Positions 3,537 to 16,520 of a stretch of 34,301 bases of DNA are shown here, in pieces. This stretch comes from Nocardioides sp. (GTDB lineage: Bacteria > Actinomycetota > Actinomycetes > Propionibacteriales > Nocardioidaceae), in contig JAFMQY010000017.1 of NCBI GenBank assembly GCA_017354415.1, positions 1-34,301 on the forward strand, in the 5' to 3' direction. Every line of letters begins with the position of its first letter. Position 1 is the stretch's first letter. A model generated the notes under the pieces. That model worked only from the letters and a program-made list of their open reading frames with translations. It searched no databases and had not been told where the DNA came from. A program made the translations under genes and the position numbers.

Positions 3537-4958
3537 TCAGAGGGGGATGTTGCCGTGCTGCCCCCTGCGTACGCCGTCCGTCTGTACGGCGACGTCGATC
3601 GCGTGGGCGATCGCGGTCCGGGTGCGCGTCGGGTCGACCACCTCGTCGACGACCCCGATCTCCTGGGCCTTGTCGACCCCGCCGGCGAGCCGCTCGTGCT
3701 CGGCGGCCAGCTCGGCCTCGACCTGGGGACGGATCTCGGGCGCGACCTCGGCCAGCCTGCGACGGTGCAGGATCCTGATCGCAGCGACCGGTCCCATCAC
3801 GGCCACCTCGGCGCCCTCCCAGGCGAAGACCTTGGTGGCACCGAGTGCCCGGGAGTTCATCGCGATGTACGCGCCGCCGTACGTCTTCCGGGTGATCAGG
3901 GTGATCCGGGGTACGACGCACTCGCCGAAGGCGTGCAGAAGCTTCGCGCCACGGCGTACGACGCCGTCCCACTCCTGCCCGACGCCGGGCAGGTAGCCGG
4001 GTACGTCGACCAGCACGACCAGCGGGATGCCGAGCGAGTCGCACAGACGGACGAACCGTGAGGCCTTCTCCGCCGACAGGGAGTCGAGGCAGCCACCTAG
4101 CCGCAACGGGTTGTTCGCGATGACGCCGACGGTGCGCCCGCCCAGTCGGCCGAGGGCGGTCACGATGTTGGGCGCCCAGCGTTCGTGGAGCTCCTGCATG
4201 GTGCCCTCGTCGAGCACGGAGTCGACCAGCGGATGCACGTCGTACGCCCGCTTCTTCGACTCCGGCAGCATCTCCGAGAGGTCGCGGTCCTCGACGGCGC
4301 TCACGTCGAGGTCACCCTGGTTGCCCAGCAGCGAGGCGACGATCCGGGCGCGCTCGAGAGCCTCCTGCTCGCTCTCGGTGAGGATGTGGACGACGCCGGA
4401 GCGTCGTCCGTGGGGCTCCGGCCCACCGAGGCGGAGCATGTCGACGTCCTCGCCGGTGACCGACCGCACGACGTCCGGGCCGGTGACGAAGATGCGACCG
4501 TCCGGTCCGAGGATCACGACGTCGGTCAGCGCCGGACCGTACGCCGCGCCGCCGGCCGCCGGGCCGAGCACGACCGAGATCTGCGGGATCTTGCCGGATG
4601 CCTGGGTCATCACTTGGAAGATCCGGCCCACCGCATGCAGTGAGAGCACACCTTCGGCGAGCCGGGCGCCGCCGGAGTGCCACAGGCCGATGATCGGAAC
4701 CCCGTCGATCATCGCCCGGTGGTAGGCGTCGACCACGACCCGGCAGCCGAGGTCGCCCATGGCGCCGCCCATCACGGTGGCGTCGGAGCAGAACGCGACA
4801 GCGCGCCGGCCCTTGACGCGGCCGACCGCGGCGAGCATCCCGCAGTCGTCCTCAGGGGTGATCAGCTCGAGCGTGCCCTCGTCGAACAGGGCGCTGAGCC
4901 GGTGGACCGGGTAGCGCGGGTCCTCTGTGCGCGGAGGCTTGGTCATGGTGGCGGTCAT
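3537..4958 (-). CDS. accD: Acyl-CoA carboxylase carboxyltransferase (beta) subunit, AccD/PccB type
   Basis: VLGPAAGGAAYGPALTDVVILG, DVPGYLPGVGQEWDGVVRRGAKLLHAFGECVVPRITLITRKTYGGAYIAMNSRALGAT are characteristic carboxyltransferase motifs. ATG at 4958 chosen over the upstream in-frame start. Confidence 0.93.
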   Translation of the reverse strand: MTATMTKPPRTEDPRYPVHRLSALFDEGTLELITPEDDCGMLAAVGRVKGRRAVAFCSDATVMGGAMGDLGCRVVVDAYHRAMIDGVPIIGLWHSGGARLAEGVLSLHAVGRIFQVMTQASGKIPQISVVLGPAAGGAAYGPALTDVVILGPDGRIFVTGPDVVRSVTGEDVDMLRLGGPEPHGRRSGVVHILTESEQEALERARIVASLLGNQGDLDVSAVEDRDLSEMLPESKKRAYDVHPLVDSVLDEGTMQELHERWAPNIVTALGRLGGRTVGVIANNPLRLGGCLDSLSAEKASRFVRLCDSLGIPLVVLVDVPGYLPGVGQEWDGVVRRGAKLLHAFGECVVPRITLITRKTYGGAYIAMNSRALGATKVFAWEGAEVAVMGPVAAIRILHRRRLAEVAPEIRPQVEAELAAEHERLAGGVDKAQEIGVVDEVVDPTRTRTAIAHAIDVAVQTDGVRRGQHGNIPL

Positions 4959-5042
4959 GTCAGCGGGTCCCCTCGGAGTTGTGGGCGGAGGAGCGGCGTC
5001 GGGTGAAGCGTTGCGGGGGATCACAGAACTCCGTGGGGTGCA

Positions 5043-6281
5043 TCAGTAGCTCCCGAAGGCGACGGCCACGTTGGCCCCGCCGAAGCCGAACGAGTTGTTG
5101 AGAGCGGCGATGTCACCCGACGGCAGGTTGCGCGCTGACGTCGGGATGTCGAGCTCGACCTGCGGGTCGAGGTTGTCGAGGTTGATCGTCGGCGGGCTGA
5201 CCCGGTGGTGGATGGCCAGCACCGTCGCGATCCCCTCGAGCGCCCCGGCGCCGCCGAGCAGGTGGCCGGTCATGGACTTGGTGCTGGTCACCACCACGTC
5301 GTCGGCGTGGGCGCCGAGCGTGGCGTGGATCATCAGTCCCTCCGCGATGTCGCCCTGCGGCGTGGAGGTCGCGTGGGCGTTGATGTGGGCGACGTCGGAG
5401 GCCTGGATGCCCGACTCCTCCAGGGCGCGCACGATCGCCCGGGCCCCACCGCGTCCAGCCGGGTCCGGCTGGGCGATGTCGTGGGAGTCGGCGGTGATGC
5501 CGGCGCCGAGCACCTCGGCGTAGATCCTCGCCCCGCGCGCCTTGGCGTGCTCCTCGGACTCGAGCACGAGTACGCCGGCGCCCTCGCCGAGCACGAACCC
5601 GTCGCGCGCGGTGTCCCACGGCCGCGACACGGTGGTCGGGTCTCCCTGGTTCTTCGACAGAGCCATCATGTTCGCGAACGCCGCCATCGGCAGCGGGTGG
5701 ATCGCGGCCTCGGTGCCGCCGGCCAGGACGATGTCGGCGCGGCCGAGCCGGATCTGGTCGAGCGCGAGCGCGATGCCCTCGTTGCCCGAGGCGCAGGCGG
5801 ACACGGGCGTGTTCACGCCGGCGCGTGCGCCGACGTACAGGCTGATGTTCGCGGCCGGGGCGTTGGGCATCAGCATCGGCACCGCCAGCGGTGACACCCG
5901 CCGGGGACCCTTCTCGAGCAGAGCGTCGTAGTTGCCGAGCAGCGTCGTCACACCGCCGATGCCCGAGGCCATCGCGACCCCGAGCCGGTCACCGTCCACG
6001 TCCGCTCCGTCCAGGCCGGCGTCCGCCCACGCCTCCATCGCCGCGATCATCGCGAACTGGGAGGTGCGGTCGAGACGACGGGCCTTGACCCGCTCGAGCA
6101 CCTCGGTCGGCTCGACCGCCGCCCGACCGGCGATCTTGACGGGCAGCTTCTCGGCCCAGTCGTCGTCCAGGTGGCGGACACCGGACTGGCCCTTGACCAG
6201 GGCCTCCCAGGTGGTGACTACGTCGCCGCCGACCGGGTTGGTGGTGCCCAGGCCGGTGACGACGACTCGCTTGGCAGACAA
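5043..6281 (-). CDS. fabF: Beta-ketoacyl-ACP synthase II
   Basis: VVVTGLGTTNPVGGD, active-site Cys in TPVSACASGNEGIA, NAHATSTPQGD, TKSMTGHLLGGAGALE, NNSFGFGGANVAVAF. TTG start preceded by gaggag. Confidence 0.96.
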   Translation of the reverse strand: MSAKRVVVTGLGTTNPVGGDVVTTWEALVKGQSGVRHLDDDWAEKLPVKIAGRAAVEPTEVLERVKARRLDRTSQFAMIAAMEAWADAGLDGADVDGDRLGVAMASGIGGVTTLLGNYDALLEKGPRRVSPLAVPMLMPNAPAANISLYVGARAGVNTPVSACASGNEGIALALDQIRLGRADIVLAGGTEAAIHPLPMAAFANMMALSKNQGDPTTVSRPWDTARDGFVLGEGAGVLVLESEEHAKARGARIYAEVLGAGITADSHDIAQPDPAGRGGARAIVRALEESGIQASDVAHINAHATSTPQGDIAEGLMIHATLGAHADDVVVTSTKSMTGHLLGGAGALEGIATVLAIHHRVSPPTINLDNLDPQVELDIPTSARNLPSGDIAALNNSFGFGGANVAVAFGSY

Positions 6282-6330: not shown

Positions 6331-6576
6331 TCAGCCCTGGGCGTTCTCGATGAACGACACGGCGTCGCCCACGGTCTTCAGGTTCTTCACCTCGTCGTCG
6401 GGGATGGACACGCCGAACTTCTCCTCGGCGGCCACGACGACCTCGACCATGGACAGGGAGTCGACGTCGAGGTCGTCGACGAACGACTTGTCCAGCTGGA
6501 CGTCCTCGGCGGGGATACCCGCGACCTCGTTGACGATCTCGGCGAGGTCGGTGCGGATCTCTTCGGTGGTGGCCAT
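6331..6576 (-). CDS. acpP: Acyl carrier protein
   Basis: MATTEEIRTDLAEIVNEVAGIPAEDVQLDKSFVDDLDVDSLSMVEVVVAAEEKFGVSIPDDEVKNLKTVGDAVSFIENAQG with DSL phosphopantetheine site. Confidence 0.97.
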   Translation of the reverse strand: MATTEEIRTDLAEIVNEVAGIPAEDVQLDKSFVDDLDVDSLSMVEVVVAAEEKFGVSIPDDEVKNLKTVGDAVSFIENAQG

Positions 6577-6649: not shown

Positions 6650-7651
6650 TTATGGCACGGTGATGACCTGGGCGGCGTACGCCAGGCCGGCACCGAACGC
6701 GATCAGCAGCGCGATGTCGCCGCTGTTGGCCTGGCCCTCCTCGATCATGCGTTCGAGGGCCAGGGGGATCGAGGCCGCCGAGGTGTTGCCCTGCTCGGCG
6801 ATGTCGCGGGCGATCGCCACCCGCTCGGGGAGCTTCATGGCCCGGGCCATGGCATCGATGATGCGCATGTTGGCCTGGTGCGGCACGAAGACGTCGAGGT
6901 CGTCGGGGGCGATGCCCGCCTTGTCGAGGGCCTGGTGGGCCACCTTCGCCATCGTGTACGACGCCCACCGGAAGACCGGGTTGCCCTGCATGGTCAGGTG
7001 GGGGAGGACGGGGTGGTCGGCGGCCAGCGCGTCTCGCCAGTCCTCCTTCTGCCGGATCAGGTCGAACTGCTCGCCGTCGGAGCCCCACACCACCGGGCCG
7101 ATGCCGGGGGTCTCGCTCGGGCCGACCACTCCGGCGCCGGCGCCGTCGGCGAAGATGAACGCCGTACCGCGATCGGTCAGGTCGGTGAGGTCCGAGAGCC
7201 GCTCGACGCCGATCACCAGCACGTAGCGGGCTGCGCCGCCGCGGATCATCTGGTCGGCGAGAGCGAGGCCGTGGCAGAAGCCGGCACAGGCCGCCGAGAT
7301 GTCGAACGCCGCGGCCTGGTCGGTGCCGAGCTCGTAGGCGATGGCGGTGGCGATCGCCGGTGTCTGGAGCAGGTGGGTGACGGTCGCGACGATCACGCAG
7401 TCGATCTGCTCGGGGGCGATCCCCGAGCGGTCGAGCGCCTTCCGCGCCGCGCCGACCGACATCACCTGGACGGTCTCCTCCGCGGTGGCGAACCGGCGCT
7501 GCTTGATGCCCGAGCGCTGCTGGATCCACTCGTCGCTGGAGTCGATCGCGTCGACGATGTGGGCGTTGGGGATCACGCGGGAGGGCCGGTAGCCGCCGAT
7601 CCCGAGGATCGCGGAGTACGGCGCACCCTGCTCGGTCGAGATCGTGGCCAT
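6650..7651 (-). CDS. fabH: Beta-ketoacyl-ACP synthase III
   Basis: FDISAACAGFCHGLALAD active-site Cys, VPHQANMRIIDAMARAM His, EQGNTSAASIPLAL Asn motif. Start overlaps the fabD stop (TGATG). Confidence 0.96.
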   Translation of the reverse strand: MATISTEQGAPYSAILGIGGYRPSRVIPNAHIVDAIDSSDEWIQQRSGIKQRRFATAEETVQVMSVGAARKALDRSGIAPEQIDCVIVATVTHLLQTPAIATAIAYELGTDQAAAFDISAACAGFCHGLALADQMIRGGAARYVLVIGVERLSDLTDLTDRGTAFIFADGAGAGVVGPSETPGIGPVVWGSDGEQFDLIRQKEDWRDALAADHPVLPHLTMQGNPVFRWASYTMAKVAHQALDKAGIAPDDLDVFVPHQANMRIIDAMARAMKLPERVAIARDIAEQGNTSAASIPLALERMIEEGQANSGDIALLIAFGAGLAYAAQVITVP

Positions 7652-8835
7652 CAGGCGGCTCCTACCGGGTGCAGTCGGACCAGGGGCTGACCGGGCGACA
7701 CCAGGTCGCCGTCCTCGACCAGCCACTCGACGACCTGGCCTCCGTGGGGCGCCCGGACCTCGGTGCGGTCGCGCAGGCTGGCGATGTCACCGAGCGCGGC
7801 GCCTGGCTCGAGCACGCTGGCGTCGCCGGCCTGCTCGGAGCGGTGGAAGGTGCCCTTGGCGGGGGCAACGACCATCAGCCAGGTCGGCGTGGTGTCGATG
7901 ACCGACGCCTCGCCGTGCTTGGCACAGAACGCCCGGGCGTCGTCGAGCTGGTCCGGCGTCTTCAGGGCGAACGACTCGACCCCAGGCAGGGCACGCTTGG
8001 CGATCCCGGTCAACGTGCCGGCGGGCGGCATCTCCAGCAGGCCGGTCACCCCGAGGTCGGACATGGTCTCCATACAGAGGTCCCAGCGCACGGGCTGGGC
8101 GATCTGGCCGACGATCCGTTTCACCACCTCGCGTCCGTCGTGCACCACCTGCCCGTCGCGGTTGGAGATCCACGGCGTACGCGGGTCGTGCGTCGAGACC
8201 GACCGCGCCAGCTTCGCCAGGTGACCGACGGCGGGCGCCATGTGCTCGGTGTGGAACGCGCCGGCGACACTGAGGGGGACCAGCCGGGCCTTGGCGGGCG
8301 GGTTGTCCGTCAGTGCCTGCAGCTGCTCCATGGTGCCCGCAGCGACGACCTGGCCGGGCCCGTTGTTGTTCGCCGGGACGAGGCCCTGCTTCTCGAGGGC
8401 GGCGACGACCTCGCCGCGGTCGCCGCCGAGGACCGCGGTCATGCCGGTGGCGGTCTTCGCGGCGGCCTCGGCCATCGCCTTGCCGCGCTCGCGGACCAGC
8501 ACCATGGCCTGCTCGGCGGTGATCGCGCGGGCACCTGCCGCGGCCGCGATCTCACCGACGCTGTGTCCGGCGACCGCGCCGATCTGGCTGAACGCGTCGG
8601 CCGGGTGCGGGAACAGCTCGAGTGCCGCGATCAGCCCGGTGGCGACCAGCAGGGGCTGGGCGATCTGGGTGTCGCGGATGGTCTCGGCGTCCGCCTCGGT
8701 GCCGTAGTGGGCCAGGTCGAGGCCGGCCACCGTGGACAGCCACTCGAACCGGGAGGCGAACGTCGGGTCCTCGAGCCAGGGGGAGAGGAAGCCGGGGGTC
8801 TGGGCTCCCTGACCGGGAGCGACGATGACGAGCAC
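7651..8835 (-). CDS. fabD: Malonyl-CoA:ACP transacylase with C-terminal biotinyl/lipoyl-like domain
   Basis: VIVAPGQGAQTPGFL, active-site GHSVGEIAAA, SVAGAFHTEHM. The C-terminal about 77 aa (VVAPAKGTFHRSEQAGDASVLEPGAALGDIASLRDRTEVRAPHGGQVVEWLVEDGDLVSPGQPLVRL) align with BCCP. GTG start at 8835. Confidence 0.93.
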   Translation of the reverse strand: MLVIVAPGQGAQTPGFLSPWLEDPTFASRFEWLSTVAGLDLAHYGTEADAETIRDTQIAQPLLVATGLIAALELFPHPADAFSQIGAVAGHSVGEIAAAAGARAITAEQAMVLVRERGKAMAEAAAKTATGMTAVLGGDRGEVVAALEKQGLVPANNNGPGQVVAAGTMEQLQALTDNPPAKARLVPLSVAGAFHTEHMAPAVGHLAKLARSVSTHDPRTPWISNRDGQVVHDGREVVKRIVGQIAQPVRWDLCMETMSDLGVTGLLEMPPAGTLTGIAKRALPGVESFALKTPDQLDDARAFCAKHGEASVIDTTPTWLMVVAPAKGTFHRSEQAGDASVLEPGAALGDIASLRDRTEVRAPHGGQVVEWLVEDGDLVSPGQPLVRLHPVGAA

Positions 8836-8901
8836 GACCCAAGCCTTCCGGCTCCGGTGGTCGGCCCGCCCCTCCGGCACGCACGAAACTCACCGACCGA
8901 T

Positions 8902-9146: not shown

Positions 9147-10376
9147 TCACGTGCCGGGTTCGACGTCGTCCGGCCGATGCGCCTGGCGCCCCAGCACGAG
9201 GGTGAGCTGCAGGGTGAGCGCCTCTCGCGGGGCGGTGGCCGACAGTCCGGTGAGGTCCGCGACCTGGCGAAGCCGGTACCGCACCGTGTTCGGATGGACG
9301 AACAGCGCCCGAGCCGTCGCCTCGAGCGACTGACCGTGCTCGAAGTACGCCGTCAGGGTCTCGATCAACGTGCCGCCGCGGCCCTGGCTCGCCTGTCGCA
9401 AGGGCACGAACACCTCGTCGACCAGGTGGCGGCGGGCATGCCCGTCGCCGGCCAGGACCCGCTCGGGCAGCAGGTCGTCGCTGGCGACCGGGCGAGGGGC
9501 GTCCGGCCAGCCCACGGCGGCCCGTAGCCCGGAGATCGCGGCCCGGGCCGACACGTGGGCCGAGGCGAGGTCGTCGGTCCGCGGACCGGTGACCACCGGG
9601 CCGTCCCCGAAGAAGCGGACGACGGCGTGCGCCGCCTCGTCGGGGTCGTCGACGCCACCCAGGATCACCACCAGCCGGTCGCCCTGAGTGGCGCACAACG
9701 CATCCATGCCCGCGCCCCGAGCCACCCGGCGTACCTGCTCGAAGAGGTCCTCGGTGCGCGGCTGGGGCACCGGCCCGAGCACGACCGTGACGCCTTCGCG
9801 CTGGGCCCAGCCGAGCGCACTGGCGCGGGAGGCGACCGCTTCGTCGGCCTCCGCGCGGAGCACCGAATCGACCACGAGGGCCTCGAGACGGGCGTCCCAC
9901 GCGCCCCGCGCCTCGGCCGCGCGGGCGTACACCTCAGCCGTGGCGAAGGCGACCTCACGGGCGTAGCGCAGGACCGCAGCGTGGACCGCGGGCGCGTCGG
10001 CGGGTTCGACGATGTCGTCGACGTGGGACTCGACCACCTCGATACCCAGCCGGACGAGGTCGACCGTCTGGCCCAGCGTGATGATGCCGGTCATGCTGCG
10101 CGGCGCGGCGCCGAACACCGCGGCCGCCGTGTCGACGGGGGAGGCCTCGTCGTCGTCCAGCCGGAACCAGTCCACGAATCCCTGGATGCCGGCCTGCAGG
10201 ATCTGGCCGATCCAGGACCGGCTCTCCGCCGAGAGCTCGGCGAACCAGGGCACGTCCGTGAGCATCCGGGCGATCGCGGCCGAGCTCAGCGCCCCGGTGG
10301 ACCGGCGCAGCGCCTCGGCCGCCCGCTCGCGCGAGCCTCCGTCGTCCGGAGGCGTGGGTACGACGCGCACGCTCAC
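9147..10376 (-). CDS. fasR: PucR-family transcriptional regulator (FasR/MabR-like) of fatty acid synthesis
   Basis: C-terminal PucR HTH: LIETLTAYFEHGQSLEATARALFVHPNTVRYRLRQVADLTGL...LTLQLTLVLGR. Located immediately upstream of fabD, as fasR/mabR are in other actinobacteria. Confidence 0.88.
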   Translation of the reverse strand: MSVRVVPTPPDDGGSRERAAEALRRSTGALSSAAIARMLTDVPWFAELSAESRSWIGQILQAGIQGFVDWFRLDDDEASPVDTAAAVFGAAPRSMTGIITLGQTVDLVRLGIEVVESHVDDIVEPADAPAVHAAVLRYAREVAFATAEVYARAAEARGAWDARLEALVVDSVLRAEADEAVASRASALGWAQREGVTVVLGPVPQPRTEDLFEQVRRVARGAGMDALCATQGDRLVVILGGVDDPDEAAHAVVRFFGDGPVVTGPRTDDLASAHVSARAAISGLRAAVGWPDAPRPVASDDLLPERVLAGDGHARRHLVDEVFVPLRQASQGRGGTLIETLTAYFEHGQSLEATARALFVHPNTVRYRLRQVADLTGLSATAPREALTLQLTLVLGRQAHRPDDVEPGT

Positions 10377-13691: not shown

Positions 13692-16520
13692 TCAGGCGTC
13701 GCCGCCTTCCTGCTTGACGCCGGCGACCGCGGTCGGGTCGTCGATCCGGTAGTGGTCGAGCGCCTTCTGCACGGTGTCGCGAGCGATCTTGCCCTCCTCG
13801 GCGAGCGCCGCCAGCGCCTGGCAGACCACCGACTCGGCGTCGATCTTGAAGTACCGCCGAGCCGCGGGCCGGGTGTCGGCGAAGCCGTAGCCGTCGGCGC
13901 CGAGCGTGTGGAAGCGCTGCGGCACCCACCGCGAGATCGTCTCCGGCACGGCGCGCATGTAGTCGCTGACCGCGACCACGGGACCCGCTGCCCCGCGGAG
14001 CTTCTCGGAGAGGTACGGCGTGCGGGGCTCCTCCAGCGGGTGCATGAAGTTCCACTCCTCGGTCGCGAGCGCCTCACGGGAGAGCTCGTTCCACGACGTG
14101 ACCGACCACAGGTCTGCCGCCACGCCCCAGTCGTCCTTCAGCAGCTGCTGCGCCTTGTGGATCCACGGCAGTGCGACACCGCTGGCGAACAGCTGCACCC
14201 GTGGTGCGTCTTCGGGGCCACCGTCGATCGGCCCGGCGAGGTGGTACAGCCCACGCAGGAGCCCATCGACGTCCAGCCCTTCCGGCTCCATGGGCTGGGA
14301 GATCGGCTCGTTGTAGACGGTGAGGTAGTAGATGATGTCCTCGCCGTGCGGGTGCTCCTCGGTCGAGCCGTACATCCGGTCGAGGCCGTTGCGCACGATG
14401 TGCGCGATCTCGTAGGCGTACGCCGGGTCGTAATGCACGACCGCCGGGTTGGTCAGCGCGAGCAGCGGCGAGTGCCCGTCGGCGTGCTGGAGGCCTTCGC
14501 CGGTCAACGTCGTGCGCCCGGCGGTGGCCCCGATCAGGAAGCCGCGAGCGAGCTGGTCGGACATCGCCCAGATCGCGTCGCCGGTCCGCTGGAAGCCGAA
14601 CATCGAGTAGAAGATGAAGACCGGGATCATCGGCTCGCCGTGCGTGGCGTACGACGAGCCGGCGGCGGTGGCGGACGCGACGCAGCCGGCCTCCGAGATG
14701 CCCTCGTGCAGCATCTGGCCCTGCGGCGACTCCTTCCACGCCAGGAGCAGCCTCCGGTCGACCGACTCGTAGAGCTGGCCGGCGGGGTTGTAGATCTTCG
14801 CCGAGCTGAACATCGAGTCCATGCCGAACGTGCGGTACTCGTCGGGTGCGATCGGGACGATCCGCGGCCCGACCTCGGGGTCCTTCATCAGGTCCTTGAG
14901 CAGCCGGACGAAGGCCATGGTCGTGGCGATCTTCTGCTTGCCCGACCCGGCCTTCAGCTCGTCGTACATCGACTCGCCGGGCAGGGTGAGCCTGCGCGGG
15001 TTGACGCGTCGCATCGGGACGCCGCCGCCGAGCTCCCGGCGACGGTCGCGGAGGTAGGCGAGCTCCGCCGAGTCCTCGCCCGGGTGGTAGAACGGCGCGG
15101 AGCCGTCGAACTCGTAGTGCTCGTCGATCTCGCCGTCGGAGATCGGAAGCTCGAGCCGGTCGCGGAACGCCTTGAGGGTGGCGGCGTTCAGCTTCTTCAT
15201 CTGGTGGGTGGCGTTGCGGCCCTGGAGCGCCTCGATCGTCCAGCCCTTGATCGTGTGGGCCAGGATCACCGTCGGCTGCCCGACGTGCTTCGAGGCAGCG
15301 TCGAAGGCGGCGTAGACCTTGCGGTAGTCGTGACCGCCGCGCGGCAGCATCTCGATGTCGCGGTCGCTCATGTTCTCGACCATCTTGCGCAGCCGGGCGT
15401 CGCCGCCGAAGAAGTGCTCGCGGATGTAGGCGCCCGACTCGACCGAGTAGGTCTGGAACTGGCCGTCCGGGGTGTTGTTCATCTGGTTCACCAGCACGCC
15501 GTCGACGTCCTGGGCGAGCAGGGCGTCCCACTCGCGCCCCCAGACCACCTTGATCACGTTCCACCCGGCGCCCCGGAAGTAGGACTCGAGCTCCTGGATG
15601 ATCTTGCCGTCGCCGCGCACCGGGCCGTCGAGCTGCTGCAGGTTGCAGTTGATGACGAACGTGAGGTTGTCGAGCTCCTCTCGGGCGGCGAGGCCGATCG
15701 AGCCGAGCGACTCGGGCTCACCCATCTCGCCGTCCCCCAGGAACGCCCACACGTGCTGCTGGCTGGTGTCCTTGATCCCGCGGTTGTGCAGGTAGCGGTT
15801 GAACCGCGCCTGGTAGACCGAGTTGATCGCGGCGAGGCCCATCGACACGGTCGGGAACTCCCAGAAGTCCGGCATCAGCCGCGGGTGGGGGTACGACGAG
15901 AGGCCGGCGCCCGGACCGTGCTGCACCTCCTGGCGGAAGCGGGCGAGATGCTCGGCGGTGAGCCGCTTCATCAGGTAGGCACGTGCGTAGATGCCGGGGG
16001 AGGCGTGCCCCTGGATGTACAACTGGTCGCCGCCGCCGGGGTGGTCCTTGCCACGGAAGAAGTGGTTGTAGCCGACCTCGTACAGGCTGGCCGCCGAGGC
16101 GTACGTCGCGATGTGGCCGCCGACCTCGAGACCCTTGCGGTTGGCCGACGACACCATCACCGCGGCGTTCCAGCGGATCAGCCGGCGGATCTTCTTCTCC
16201 ATCTGCTCGTCGCCGGGGAACCACGGCTCACGCTCGGGCGGGATGGTGTTGATGAAGTCGGTGCTCCGGAGGGCGGGGACCCCGACCTGCTTCTCCCGGG
16301 CGCGTTCGAGCAGGCGCAGCATGATGTAGCGCGCGCGCTCGCGGCCGTGCGCCTCGGTCAGGTCGTCGAACGACTCCACCCACTCCCGGGTCTCCTCGGG
16401 ATCGATGTCCGGGAGCTGGGTGGACAGGCCCTCGTGGATCACGGCGCGGGTCGGGGGTGCCACCGAGGGCGCAGCGGAGGTGTCGGAGGTGGCCGCGGAT
16501 GCGGCGGAGGTCTCACTCAC
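13692..16520 (-). CDS. aceE: Pyruvate dehydrogenase E1 component, homodimeric type
   Basis: 942 aa; [91 protein letters not shown]. Confidence 0.97.

Follow-up and report, generated by a model that had tools for sequence, protein, structure and literature searches.

A lysine-less biotin-carrier-like domain at the C-terminus of Nocardioides FabD is co-inherited with the operon carboxyltransferase gene accD

Acetyl-CoA carboxylase (ACC) catalyses the committed step of fatty-acid synthesis, and to our knowledge it is an open question how bacteria couple this enzyme to the fatty-acid synthase. The question is raised by a fabD gene (malonyl-CoA:ACP transacylase) of a Nocardioides sp., situated in the window analysed here (a stretch of 34,301 nucleotides), that encodes a transacylase followed by a domain resembling the biotin carboxyl carrier protein (BCCP). 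The gene occupies 7651..8880 of the minus strand when counted as an ORF of 409 residues from the furthest GTG; start conservation suggests the GTG near 8835 as the likely start, giving a protein of about 394 residues, as the initial annotation had it. That annotation was also right about the ORF, the position of the tail, and its alignment to AccB. The protein has the acyltransferase fold with the GHSxG serine motif: the GHSVGE active site pointed out earlier is present in the translation (8551..8568, minus strand; Ser107 of the 409-residue ORF) and its G-H-S is invariant in the alignment of FabD homologues; Pfam Acyl_transf_1 matches at 4.8e-21, and the model fits the FabD structure 1NM2 with a Foldseek TMt of 0.97. 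Its place in a fatty-acid synthesis operon of the order fabD-fabH-acpP-fabF-accD agrees with this assignment. The score against the NCBIfam fabD model TIGR00128 is below the cut-off, and the malonate decarboxylase model MdcH is slightly ahead (181.6 vs 172.9 bits), which could lead to misannotation.

The other genes of the operon, all on the minus strand, are fabH (6650..7651; NCBIfam fabH, 5.8e-112), whose ATG shares one base with the fabD stop codon (TGATG), acpP (6331..6576; NCBIfam acyl carrier protein, 5e-39), fabF (5043..6281; NCBIfam fabF, 1.5e-147), and accD (3537..5024; PF01039, 8e-120). The latter, three genes downstream of fabD, encodes the carboxyltransferase (beta) subunit of an acyl-CoA carboxylase, which is the enzyme first proposed for it. 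Upstream of the fab operon are the genes for a PucR-type regulator (9147-10376) and for AceE (13692-16520).

Standard FabD proteins, such as those of S. coelicolor (1NM2) and M. tuberculosis (2QC3), are 59% and 51% identical to the catalytic domain over about 300 aligned columns, but they end at about 305-320 residues without an extra domain. Here, a linker (7888..7935, minus strand; modelled by AlphaFold2 with low confidence, pLDDT ~67 for model residues 311-320) leads into a predicted barrel-sandwich domain of about 75 residues (332-406; 7663..7887, minus strand). Modelled alone, the tail gives a complete barrel-sandwich domain with a pLDDT of 95.4 and a pTM of 0.82, for which Foldseek ranks the biotinyl domain of E. 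coli AccB (1BDO) first (E 3e-5, TM 0.80/0.76); the C-terminal biotinyl-type barrel foreseen in the initial annotation is thus borne out by modelling. A profile of 68 tail sequences finds the solved biotinyl domains 1O78 (6e-13) and 1BDO (1.3e-6), and the tail matches NCBIfam PRK07051 (BCCP-like, 1.7e-8) and Pfam Biotin_lipoyl_2 (1.1e-6), its single-sequence Pfam scores falling near the curated cut-offs, on either side. By these profile and model matches, the resemblance to biotinyl domains is far above chance. It extends from the fold to a GTF-R-like start shared with AccB and PRK07051-type BCCPs; unlike AccB, the tail lacks the biotinyl lysine and the "thumb" (being about 6 residues shorter) and has its own W334, E385-W386, and R402-L-H-P. 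The pTM of 0.78 for the two-domain model is roughly the value we would expect of two rigid domains free to reorient, so that the tail looks tethered to FabD rather than packed on it.

The tail thus has the fold of a BCCP according to model, Foldseek, and profile, but not the modifiable lysine of the (E/V)(A/V)MK(M) hairpin. In the window, the codon at 7771..7773 (minus strand) reads CGC, and the Arg370 that it encodes aligns exactly to the K of (E)AMKM, as initially noted. A homologue with a modifiable lysine was looked for among 126 sequences, and none has one. The position holds Arg in 115, which answers in part the earlier question whether it is conserved: Arg predominates but is not required, as it is replaced in 11 by Q (4), S (2), D (2), L, G, or A (1 each), and the whole hairpin is deleted in two sequences from outside the class (L299 and L304). 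The tail is unable to carry CO2. That it might still be modified on another residue and serve as a genuine carrier has a probability close to nil given the lysine count and the deleted hairpins, and we found no support for such a modification. Nor has it the hairpin lysine of the lipoyl domains of 2-oxoacid dehydrogenase E2 components, and biotinyl domains match it better.

How widespread is this tail, and is it maintained? The initial annotation regarded so long a FabD as unusual; the extension is real, yet common in its lineage, being present in 93 of the 131 genomes with a FabD in our sample of the order and, in a sample of the class, in about 29 coded families. The 131 genomes are the 149 sampled minus 18 without a FabD match at E<1e-50; some of the genomes sampled are incomplete (e.g. 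G220, 85%). The FabD-less genomes, mostly of genus g9 (family f1), perhaps use a type I fatty-acid synthase. The closest relatives on named contigs all belong to Nocardioides or Nocardioidaceae, with at most 91% identity over the domain. No description of the domain was found in the open-access literature searched.

In the alignment of 126 tails, E385 is present in 126, W386 in 125, and R402 in 123 sequences; W334, R335, G343, H379, G381, L387, D392, V394, P396-G-Q-P, L403, H404, and P405 are near-fixed as well. From the alignment column counts we derive the signature H-G-G-x-V-V-E-W-L-V-E-D-G (residues 379-391; 7708..7746, minus strand), and a GDxVxPGQPLxRLHP stretch is nearly invariant across many families. 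The family has a signature of its own, as the true biotinyl domains in the alignment do not share E385-W386. Such conservation bears on the simplest explanation of the tail, that it is a relic, an ACC carrier that became fused to FabD long ago, lost its lysine, and is now structurally tolerated without having a function. The many losses of the tail would fit a relic, which however would neither keep near-fixed residues across many families nor persist in every genome of the order that keeps accD (see below); we hold it to be very improbable.

The domain occurs also outside FabD. Beyond the class, in other classes of the phylum, the tail profile finds lysine-less BCCP-like ORFs between fabD and fabH in four genomes (L301:1351-1728; L302:907-1758, with the domain near the 3' end; L308:1294-1728; L323:1054-1776), of which we found no description either. 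The two fused FabDs with the deleted hairpin (L299:538-1713 and L304:544-1713) are each followed by fabH and fabG. Another lysine-less BCCP-like domain (L307:1432-2658) adjoins aminotransferase and sulfotransferase genes and was left out of the fab-linked count. In a tree, a single branch separates the fused and free forms from 15 true biotinyl domains (100/99, or 98/99 once the motif columns are left out). With 66-75 columns the alignment is short, all true domains but E. coli AccB come from the same search, and L307 groups with the free forms although it is not fab-linked, so the tree is to be read as support for a distinct, putatively non-carrier family and not as a resolved history. The occurrence as one chain in some lineages and as separate ORFs in others is a classic sign that the domain acts jointly with FabD.

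With what, then, does it bring FabD together? Across the 131 genomes of the order the tail tracks accD, which is new here: 89 have both, 38 have neither, four have the tail without accD, and none has accD without the tail among the matches listed. Put otherwise, the tail is missing from 38 of the 42 accD-less genomes and from 0 of the 89 with accD (among the matches listed); genome-wide absence of accD means none at an E-value cut of 1e-130 among the matches listed, and the neighbourhoods agree in the cases checked. In the first 20 neighbourhoods, picked on the state of the tail before accD was inspected, accD directly follows fabF in 7/7 with the tail and is missing in 13/13 without it (one of the latter, L142, ends early). 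It likewise directly follows fabF in every one of the 72 tail-bearing contigs named as Nocardioides that have enough sequence, counting as present ten accD rows that overlap the fabF alignment or sit slightly past it.

Because related genomes are not independent, we used a tree-based pairs test over the class, with a tree built from FabF, FabH, and AcpP of 80 operons. The tail changes state on this tree at least 14-16 times. Of 14 independent contrasts, 9.4 show accD and the tail changing in the same direction and 0.7 in opposite directions, and accD stays unchanged in 3.8 (median p 0.012, two-sided sign test), which supports the link. Part of the 81-operon set had been selected for its state, a bias that the pairs test corrects incompletely. 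One deletion cannot explain the link, because three genes, fabH-acpP-fabF, separate tail and accD. Tail loss in Nocardioides through transfer of a foreign fabD is ruled out too, the tail-less FabD falling inside the Nocardioides clade (99*). An apparent remnant of the domain after a stop codon in G107 is not real; its FabD ends cleanly.

The association is one-sided in the order. The tail is never missing where accD is kept, while four tail-bearing genomes have lost accD, a pattern suggesting that genomes without accD can do without the tail. AccD in turn does not need the tail, as five families of the class (f7, f16, f20, f21, and f29) combine an operon accD with a tail-less FabD. The earlier proposal of a non-carrier tied to the carboxyltransferase holds in part: the lysine is absent and the 89 accD-bearing genomes of the order offer no exception. 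The docking on AccD, the competition with true BCCP, and the coupling of malonyl-CoA production to its use that it put forward keep the status of proposals.

The same neighbourhoods speak to a further idea, namely that the tail is a lipoyl-like mimic docking FabD on pyruvate dehydrogenase and so linking it to the supply of acetyl-CoA. Lipoyl domains share the fold and aceE lies upstream in the window; aceE nevertheless persists beside tail-less operons (L134, L135, L138, and L139 of Nocardioides, and G225 of family f36) and both the structure and the profile searches rank biotinyl domains above lipoyl ones. We rejected this docking, which seems hardly probable at all, on the persistence of aceE.

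Genomes that have lost both accD and tail often have an alternative system, a eukaryote-type homodimeric multidomain ACC of 1825-2150 residues with BC, BCCP, ACC_central, and CT domains (e.g. L354:1175-6652). Such an enzyme (SACE_4237) has been demonstrated to provide the actinobacterium Saccharopolyspora with malonyl-CoA for its fatty acids (PMC6491548). Searched with a 626-residue C-terminal part as the query, it is patchy in the order and often found in genomes lacking the operon accD: of the 38 genomes that have neither tail nor accD 23 encode it, as do all four with the tail only and 43 of the 89 with both. In the class sample it occurs in family f33 (G208), f36 (G225), f20 (G293 and G338), and f40 (G269 and G361), and also in G198, G220, and G375; it was not found in the members of f36 that have both tail and accD. 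The other 15 of the 38 lack all three, tail, operon accD, and multidomain ACC (G174, G112, G073, G132, G067, G054, G129, G076, G103, G109, G085, G040, G100, G114, and G150). In some accD-less lineages the tail scores low (83.6-109.5 bits, where the median is 118.7) and from its sequence looks degenerate; G269, G361, G164, G178, and G375 score 83.6-99.7 bits. A plausible path would be that a single-chain ACC was gained and made the two-component enzyme redundant, that accD was then lost, and that the tail decayed and finally disappeared. A long FabD with an operon accD, as opposed to a single-chain ACC, may serve as a sequence marker for the likely lipid or polyketide carboxylase of actinobacteria, which is of relevance to malonyl-CoA engineering.

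The co-occurrence with the operon carboxylase gene suggests that the tail links FabD and the carboxylase, and a functional link of the tail to the two-component ACC is well supported. The reading that we prefer, at slightly better than an even chance, is that the tail is a non-carrier docking domain tying FabD to this enzyme. It would be a retired biotin-carrier fold reused as a binding module, without prosthetic group, that binds, on its short linker, the two-component acyl-CoA carboxylase (an AccA-type BC-BCCP chain plus AccD) and thereby brings FabD close to where its substrate malonyl-CoA is made. The carboxylase is named as the partner because of the order of the operon genes, the existence of a free ORF, and the joint inheritance of tail and accD; that the tail binds the whole ACC complex, and does so directly, and that FabD gains a local supply of malonyl-CoA (or regulation) from it, is what we infer. 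Several observations go against such docking: the families that keep accD with a plain FabD, two accD-less genomes with an intact-looking tail (G050, 121 bits, and G198, 124 bits), and the 15 genomes in which the multidomain ACC is missing along with tail and accD. The tail is small and dispensable in some species, so that the coupling of carboxylase and FabD is open to test.

Co-inheritance with accD would also fit a second role, in which the tail assembles, activates, or inhibits ACC while FabD acts as sensor or carrier and no channelling is involved. The precedent is the plant BADC proteins, non-catalytic, BCCP-like proteins devoid of the biotinylation motif that are tied to acetyl-CoA carboxylase as its assembly glue or inhibitors (PMC11926652). 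The tail too is a BCCP-like domain without the biotinylation motif; the likeness is one of features, and BADCs are separate plastid subunits of a four-subunit ACC, whereas the tail is fused to FabD or encoded by a fabD-adjacent ORF in Actinomycetota and its ACC is the two-component AccA/AccD. A second likeness is to the epsilon subunit (PF13822), a small non-catalytic helper that actinobacterial ACCs usually need (PMC13118682) and that has no gene beside the operon accD. Epsilon belongs to another family, is absent among the Pfam matches of FabD, and is encoded elsewhere in these genomes, in the present one next to another carboxyltransferase. The epsilon gene is equally missing beside accD in tail-less operons, and the tail therefore does not simply replace epsilon. 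We regard such an assembling or regulatory role as unlikely. The two readings are FabD docked at the source of malonyl-CoA, or a BADC-like assembly or regulatory function with FabD as the carrier. More tentatively than docking as such, and at somewhat less than even chances, we propose that Actinomycetota have a dedicated, non-biotinylated BCCP mimic, free or fused to FabD, that would physically couple carboxylase to transacylase, a bacterial counterpart of BADC that would in addition channel substrate into FAS-II and would disappear where a single-chain carboxylase steps in.

Evolutionary distances lend the docking of FabD on ACC mixed support. In mirror-tree comparisons, distances of the FabD catalytic domain and of AccD correlate beyond those of FabF, FabH, and AcpP (partial r 0.55, p 2e-4), but those of the tail and AccD do not significantly (partial r 0.11, p 0.17); the tail instead correlates with FabH (partial r 0.42, p 2e-4). 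Tail distances that track FabH beyond the other operon proteins, together with the overlap of fabD and fabH and the free form between these genes, would suit a tail that organises FAS-II through FabH, ACP, or the FabD catalytic domain, its link with accD being an indirect effect of operon type. Tail loss, however, does not follow the loss of FabH, AcpP, or FabF, since these persist in almost all tail-less operons, and the pTM of the two-domain model and its low-confidence linker give no sign of fixed packing on FabD; we consider this organising role quite improbable. In tail-less Nocardioides the FabD catalytic domain is less similar to outgroups (identity 0.59-0.61 vs 0.64) while FabF and FabH are not more diverged. 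The PucR regulator is likewise more diverged in the Nocardioides without tail and accD, so the faster change of FabD is not specific.

At R198 of AccD, 35 of 36 tail-bearing lineages have Arg, and tail-less lineages that keep accD have S, A, E, L, or T; it is a possible specificity site, and V194 and H264 also separate tail-bearing from tail-less lineages, a lead from about three independent contrasts.
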